NCBI GenBank assembly: GCA_021779915.1
Contig: JAJXZR010000011.1
Location: forward strand, 1 to 54,189
Origin: a bacterium
Lineage (GTDB): Bacteria > Patescibacteriota > Minisyncoccia > CAIUEV01
Reading direction: 5' to 3'
DNA: 54,189 nt
Part shown: in pieces, positions 12,885-34,351 of the stretch
Position numbering within the stretch: the stretch's first letter is position 1
How the letters are laid out: each line of letters starts with the position of its first letter
Translations under genes and position numbers: made by a program
The notes under the pieces: generated by a model
Told to the model about the DNA's origin: nothing
Database searches by the model: none
The model's input: the letters and a program-made list of their open reading frames with translations, nothing else

Positions 12885-12985
12885 ATTGCCAACTTGAATT
12901 TAGAAAACTTTGTTTTCAAACTAGGGGATTTCCTACAAGAAAATCATAGTTTAAAAACAAAGTTTTCTAAATTCAAGTTGGCAAT
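12885..12985. repeat. Core-plus-variable-arm palindromic element, copy A
   Basis: Perfect 32-bp inverted arms (ATTGCCAACTTGAATTTAGAAAACTTTGTTTT / complement) around core CAAACTAGGGGATTTCCTACAAGAAAATCATAGTTTA. Confidence 0.93.
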
Positions 12986-13076
12986 GGAGCGTTCAATGCA
13001 TATTCTTTATAAACTTTATAACTTTAAAAACTTGCTTGCCCCGTACCGAATGGTTCTGGGGATGAACTAATGTGTG

Positions 13077-13160: not shown

Positions 13161-13212
13161 CATTATAAAATTTTCAATTTCTAATTTTTAATTTTCAAAC
13201 AATATTAGTCTA

Positions 13213-13307
13213 GTGTGTCATCTTCGCGAAGGCGGGGATCCAGGAGAATAATATTAGACTAACAAAGTATTGCTTTTCTGGACTCCTGCCTTCGCAGGAA
13301 TGACACG
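13213..13307. repeat. Inverted pair of GTGTCATC..GGATCC-type repeats
   Basis: GTGTCATCTTCGCGAAGGCGGGGATCCAG ... CTGGACTCCTGCCTTCGCAGGAATGACAC flanking AATATTAGACTAA. Confidence 0.85.
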
Positions 13308-13384
13308 TGTTTTTTGTTTTTAAAATTGATAAATTAGAAATTGTTTTAAAATTGAAAATTAGAAATTGAAAATTGAACTAACCT

Positions 13385-13470: not shown

Positions 13471-13565
13471 TTCTTACGAAACTCAGGTAGTATTCTTTTC
13501 AAACTAGAGGATTTCCTACAAGAAAATCATAGTTTAAAAAGAATACTACCTGAGTTTCGCAAGAA
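13471..13565. repeat. Core-plus-variable-arm palindromic element, copy B
   Basis: 29-nt inverted arms with one mismatch (TTCTTACGAAACTCAGGTAGTATTCTTTT) around CAAACTAGAGGATTTCCTACAAGAAAATCATAGTTTA, 1 nt different from the copy A core. Confidence 0.93.
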
Positions 13566-34249: not shown

Positions 34250-34351
34250 CCATTTAAAAAAATCTTGAAAAGTGCCTTTTCAAAACTAGGGGATTTTCTA
34301 TGGGAAAATCATAATTTTTAAAAGGTACTTTCCAAGGTTTCTTTTAAATGG
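34250..34351. repeat. Core-plus-variable-arm palindromic element, copy C (diverged)
   Basis: Imperfect arms CCATTTAAAAAAATCTTGAAAAGTGCCTTTT / AAAAGGTACTTTCCAAGGTTTCTTTTAAATGG around CAAAACTAGGGGATTTTCTATGGGAAAATCATAATTTTT. Confidence 0.85.

Follow-up and report, generated by a model that had tools for sequence, protein, structure and literature searches.

MITEs are bounded by conserved terminal inverted repeats and are usually accompanied by target duplications. The hairpins described here resemble ERIC and MITE-like repeats by their length of about 100-130 bp, their palindromic structure and their dispersal between genes, and they share with REP/BIME repeats, which are mobilised by Y1 transposases (RAYT), the character of short palindromic intergenic repeats of bacteria. 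REPs measure 20-40 bp and fall into classes according to a conserved tag on one of their ends (PMC3733652). The dispersed hairpin repeats of organelles are a further likeness: they are intergenic and lineage-specific, their loop sequences recur while their stems vary in length, and they are taken as selfish. In quasi-palindrome correction by template switching, one arm is rewritten from the other and paired changes arise in one step, as is proposed for the present hairpins (PMC8794818, PMC8604942, PMC7202029). Such switching creates and repairs perfect stems in one event (PMC8794818); it also homogenises arms and inverts spacers (PMC8604942).

Hairpins of the window and of its genome

The window, i.e. 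the whole stretch of 54,189 nucleotides that was analysed, is contig 41 of a 48-contig draft genome (1.118 Mb, 96% complete). It carries three hairpins with the following parts.

12885..12916, + strand: left arm of copy A (32 nt), 32/32 complementary to 12954-12985
12917..12953, + strand: core of copy A, of the family A type and forming an imperfect hairpin of its own; the core pattern is matched with 0 mismatches
12954..12985, + strand: right arm of copy A, pairing with the left arm 12885-12916 (32/32)
13471..13499, + strand: left arm of copy B (29 nt), 28/29 complementary to 13537-13565
13500..13536, + strand: core of copy B, core pattern match
13537..13565, + strand: right arm of copy B, pairing with the left arm 13471-13499 (28/29)
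34250..34281, + strand: left arm of copy C, with decayed pairing (folding and mismatch inspection)
34282..34318, + strand: core of copy C (subfamily TTTTCTATGGG, one stem pair broken), core pattern match
34319..34351, + strand: right arm of copy C (folding and mismatch inspection)

An earlier note, made from the window, had placed these copies at 12885-12985, 13471-13565 and 34250-34351. The positions were verified, and the window gave three matches to the core pattern, against none in 100 dinucleotide shuffles. When the pairing was recounted, the values of the note were obtained again (32/32 in copy A, 28/29 in copy B, imperfect arms in copy C), with folding z-scores of -11.9, -9.3 and -6.3, respectively, against shuffles. 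The mismatches of copy C, described in the note as mostly G:T-compatible, are in fact of both kinds, G.T and A.C, and are not mainly wobbles. Copy A begins 5 nt past the stop codon of a Mur-ligase-family gene, copy B lies ~13 nt past a tRNA-Thr and copy C is located upstream of a minus-strand ORF. Further long inverted repeats, of types different from the core hairpins, are present in the window at 85-212, 13169-13374 and 1249-1395; they consist of AT-rich arms around GTCGCC hairpins or of arms enclosing a GGATCC-type repeat, and similar types, with arms made of short tandem units, recur genome-wide. Tandem-like repeats of the TTTATAAACTTTATAACTTT type are found 3' of several hairpins, e.g. 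at 13006-13032 of the window.

All contigs of the window's genome were scanned for stems with loops of 3-69 nt. Family A, which comprises the core of the window copies and the subfamilies AAACTGAGGTATTTTC... and AAACGTGAAGGATTTC..., occurs 15 times in the whole 1.12-Mb genome by strict pattern and about 23 times with the subfamilies. Its stems have a median length of 42 bp and are 98.7% paired; pairing stays at 0.92-0.97 out to about 30 nt from the core and reaches background near 40 nt, and the stem is free of mismatches in 15 of the 23 copies. A second family, B, with the core TTGTGAGGAC(C)TGTCTGAGCGAAGCGAGTTCCGCAACAA, is represented by 15 copies in the window's genome, none of them within the window.

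Contigs C8, C14, C19, C20, C21, C28, C30, C39 and C42, e.g. L063:4778-4901: family B hairpins (core TTGTGAGGACCTGTCTGAGCGAAGCGAGTTCCGCAACAA, phased T runs in the arms)

Both families together amount to about forty scattered hairpins in which the core is fixed and the arms differ by site. The design recognised from the window alone, a constant core between locus-specific complementary arms, thus holds when the whole genome is searched with the core. The copies are dispersed and not arrayed like the attC sites of integron cassettes; as in dispersed hairpin repeats, many related copies occupy unrelated intergenic sites, and they are absent at the syntenic sites of relatives (see below).

Some individual copies show particular features. 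In the family A copy at C32:9890-9936, the left arm has apparently been replaced by a GGATCCCCGGTCGACACGCCGGGGATGACAC-type repeat and 6 bp of arm are left. The copy at C29:6510-6616 forms the ends of an rplI-like gene and of its neighbour, with four codons overlapped; this neighbour is oppositely oriented in JAJYBC01, a genome of a related genus, and an inversion breakpoint therefore coincides with the element. Several contigs of the draft genome end at these hairpins.

Inheritance of the arms and distribution of the elements

The arms had been considered unrelated between copies in the earlier note, where, with only three diverged copies in view, their relatedness could not have been seen. 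At the scale of the genome this does not hold. Over positions 7-30, the in-register identity between family A arms is 0.398, versus 0.286 (sd 0.005) for shuffled arms, and the corresponding values in family B are 0.475 and 0.408. Arm similarity tracks core similarity in family A (Mantel r 0.25; 49 of 5000 permutations reach the observed value) and likewise in family B (30 of 5000 permutations). In the closest family A subfamily pair, C42:7364 and C47:8197, the arms are homologous and 14 of 36 pairs differ, all 14 on both sides and none on one side only. Close pairs with homologous arms are found at sites whose flanks are unrelated. In-register identity above chance, similarity that follows the core and fully compensated differences in close pairs lead us to conclude that the arms are inherited with the core, travel with it and drift together. 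These repeats constitute one family in which arms are inherited and changes are compensated: alignment A1 of the family A stem contains 281 cells changed on both sides, versus 85.5 in shuffles, and its covariation score of 0.811 (0.214 in shuffles) drops to 0.13-0.26 when the partners are slid, a shift of one column being enough to make it collapse.

Between family A copies, the outer arm positions 31-35 have an identity of 0.27, which is background, yet they are 82% paired. No match to the arms was found elsewhere in the window's genome except in related family B copies, and the idea that they derive from other genomic places was rejected. Two family B copies, at C14:234 and C21:22367 (oriented coordinates), have near-identical arms; an extra stretch of flank, ttttgtcga, is also common to the pair but lies on one side of the core in one copy and on the other side in the other, as though the core had been inverted. 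One of the two copies is cut by a contig end.

The comparison genome, JAJYBC01, is a metagenome assembly of an uncultured bacterium of the same family but of another genus, of which 550 kb and overlapping loci were read. It contains 23 hairpins of the same design with a core of its own, AGTGnnAAGTCACCCTGCYRGGGGCACACT, and stems of 30 bp (median).

L156-L175 and L196-L230, e.g. L161:2750-2832 and L170:11740-11821: JAJYBC01 hairpins

A further small family of this genome, with the core ATG-gggtttgctgcgcaaaa-CAT, is found at L171:4904 and 5586. The arms of the L161 and L170 copies are homologous and have five differences, all both-sided, and an extra one-sided homology, TGTTAC, lies to the left of both. 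Among GTDB species contigs, the JAJYBC01 core is present only in JAJYBC01. A genome representing a different family of the order gave no such hairpins over the 307 kb that were read, and exact core scans of GTDB contigs and IMG/VR gave no match. A search of the order with model R1 and of 392 class genomes with the core patterns returned only the window's own genome; the model is core-specific and missed the JAJYBC01 hairpins, so that its negative results say little about hairpins with other cores. Each of the three cores is without a match in any other genome searched.

At the eight JAJYBC01 element sites that are syntenic in the window's genome, seven are without an element and one (C20) carries a family B copy; conversely, none of five syntenic family A or B sites holds an element in JAJYBC01. 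Within the genomes searched, elements thus come and go at syntenic sites, and the two genera have different cores. A probable mobility of the elements is suggested by their dispersal and by the syntenic sites that lack them, with one genome of the genus compared.

Competing explanations for the paired arms

In the reading that we prefer, with a probability of about 0.58, the elements are lineage-specific dispersed DNA hairpin repeats whose arms are kept complementary by arm-to-arm copying, via template switch or fold-back synthesis. An element of about 100-130 bp would consist of a sequence-conserved core and two arms of 30-45 bp, and the whole hairpin would be inherited and would spread as a unit. 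The arms would drift fast in sequence, and their pairing would be kept by repeated rewriting of one arm as the inverted copy of the other. The writing step would most likely be a DNA template switch at the hairpin, either as in-place correction of a quasi-palindrome or as fold-back synthesis at the time of copy-making, for which the core hairpin would serve as primer and loop. What we infer is that one arm is copied from the other, that the elements are mobile and that they lack a host function. Arm-to-arm copying is preferred because the core is near-constant while the arms turn over yet stay paired. Simple decay after insertion is disfavoured, since copies would then resemble copy C, whereas most family A copies are free of mismatches. 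Some observations do not fit so well. A one-base bulge close to the core (left gttaG, right gtta) is retained in five family B copies, although the greater part of their arms has diverged in step. This common bulge counts against rapid correction, which should remove it; either correction misses some positions or selection keeps the bulge. The arms of copy C and of two other copies have decayed, and in-place correction would therefore not be efficient everywhere. In addition, each of the two enzyme families considered below was found in one of the two genomes only, and target duplications were not observed.

The main rival to arm-to-arm copying, which we judge possible though unlikely, is a selection that keeps a DNA hairpin or cruciform read by a protein: the core and phased stem positions would be contacted, the other positions merely paired, and pairing would be restored by compensatory mutation. 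The near-constancy of the core while the arms drift and the bulge of the five family B copies are compatible with this proposal, as are the conserved T runs of family B, which are spaced 10.5 nt apart with randomised positions between them (0/2000 permutations). This phasing suggests that a B-form stem is contacted on a single face, a constraint that speaks against our preferred reading; however, the periodicity does not reach significance in family A, is marginal in the JAJYBC01 family and is inflated by the relatedness of the copies. Moreover, almost every change affects both sides and mismatched intermediates are few; no consistent gene context was found for the copies, and most of the syntenic sites in the other genus lack an element.

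A more tentative proposal, and a rather doubtful one, is that the element spreads as one arm plus the core, the core hairpin priming the fold-back synthesis of the second arm at each copy. If so, the palindrome would be self-restoring and perfect at birth whatever its arm sequence, and the core alone would need conservation. The one-sided extra homologies of the L161/L170 and C14/C21 pairs are a weak lead in this direction.

It is improbable that the core inserts beside arbitrary DNA and that the flank is duplicated in inverted form a single time, upon insertion. The outer positions, at background identity but largely paired, and the failure of the arms to match anything else in the genome would agree with such an event; the inner arms, however, resemble one another in register, to a degree that follows the similarity of the cores, and close pairs keep homologous arms beside unrelated flanks. 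The hairpin-primed switch evoked in the earlier note must be restricted accordingly: flanking DNA as a general source of arms is not supported, given their common register-specific sequence and the close pairs just mentioned, and a weaker form, in which the element's own arm is recopied, survives. The other mechanism considered there, insertion of a core into existing palindromes, is opposed by the inheritance of the arms with the core and by the five syntenic JAJYBC01 sites that lack the element.

Selection at the RNA level, on a transcribed hairpin or a bidirectional terminator, is more improbable still, despite strong fold energies and strong covariation. RNA helices under selection carry far more wobble pairs than these stems: in 61 copies, mismatches account for 49 of the 2252 stem pairs (9 G.T, 19 A.C and 21 others), i.e. 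wobble-type mismatches make up at most 0.8% of the pairs, and thus <1%, whichever strand is read. The covariation is strong but is not accompanied by the tolerated G.U pairs of a structured RNA, and no Rfam family was matched. A T run after the 3' arm (>=6 T in 10 nt) is present in only 5 of the 61 copies and there is no bias toward gene 3' ends, the facing gene ends being 5' in 29 of 44 cases for family A and 20 of 28 for family B; the suggestion that the hairpins act as terminators is thus unsupported. RNA-only selection and terminators are both disfavoured. Finally, an assembly or amplification artefact, to which the contigs ending at hairpins and the metagenomic origin of the assemblies could point, is hardly credible: at dozens of loci the cores are conserved, the arms inherited and the differences compensated, most of these loci are contig-internal with distinct flanks on both sides, and the same design is present in two independent genomes.

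Mobilising enzymes and described repeat systems

No match to the Y1 transposase (PF01797) was found in the window's genome, where, at 96% completeness, its absence is probable, and two matches were found in JAJYBC01. The reverse transcriptase (PF00078) is present in the window's genome and was not found in JAJYBC01, and was rejected as a common driver for this reason. No target-site duplication was seen around the 61 copies, where abutting direct repeats measure 0 nt in 34, 1 nt in 18, 2 nt in 6 and 3-4 nt in 3. DNA uptake signal sequences resemble a core with phased T tracts; this reading was discarded, as a density of about one copy per 28 kb falls far short of that and no test supports it.

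The parallel families, with different cores in two genera, provide a natural set of about 60 hairpins that could be used for weighing palindrome-restoring DNA copying against selection in bacteria, and they point to the possible spread of a short element of which only the centre is conserved.

A REP/RAYT system is disfavoured, since a Y1 transposase would be expected in the window's genome. The elements also differ from MITEs, their termini being the variable part (0.27 identity at positions 31-35) and not conserved terminal repeats. Organellar hairpin repeats have loops of 3-5 nt, and it is sequence conservation that defines their families, whereas the constant part is here a core of 31-39 nt and the arms vary with full compensation. 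Quasi-palindrome correction is a mutational process and not an element family, and it leaves the dispersal and the conserved core unexplained. In palindromic repeats it is usually the arm sequence that persists and the pairing that is lost as copies age; in the present hairpins, pairing is kept and the arm sequence turns over.
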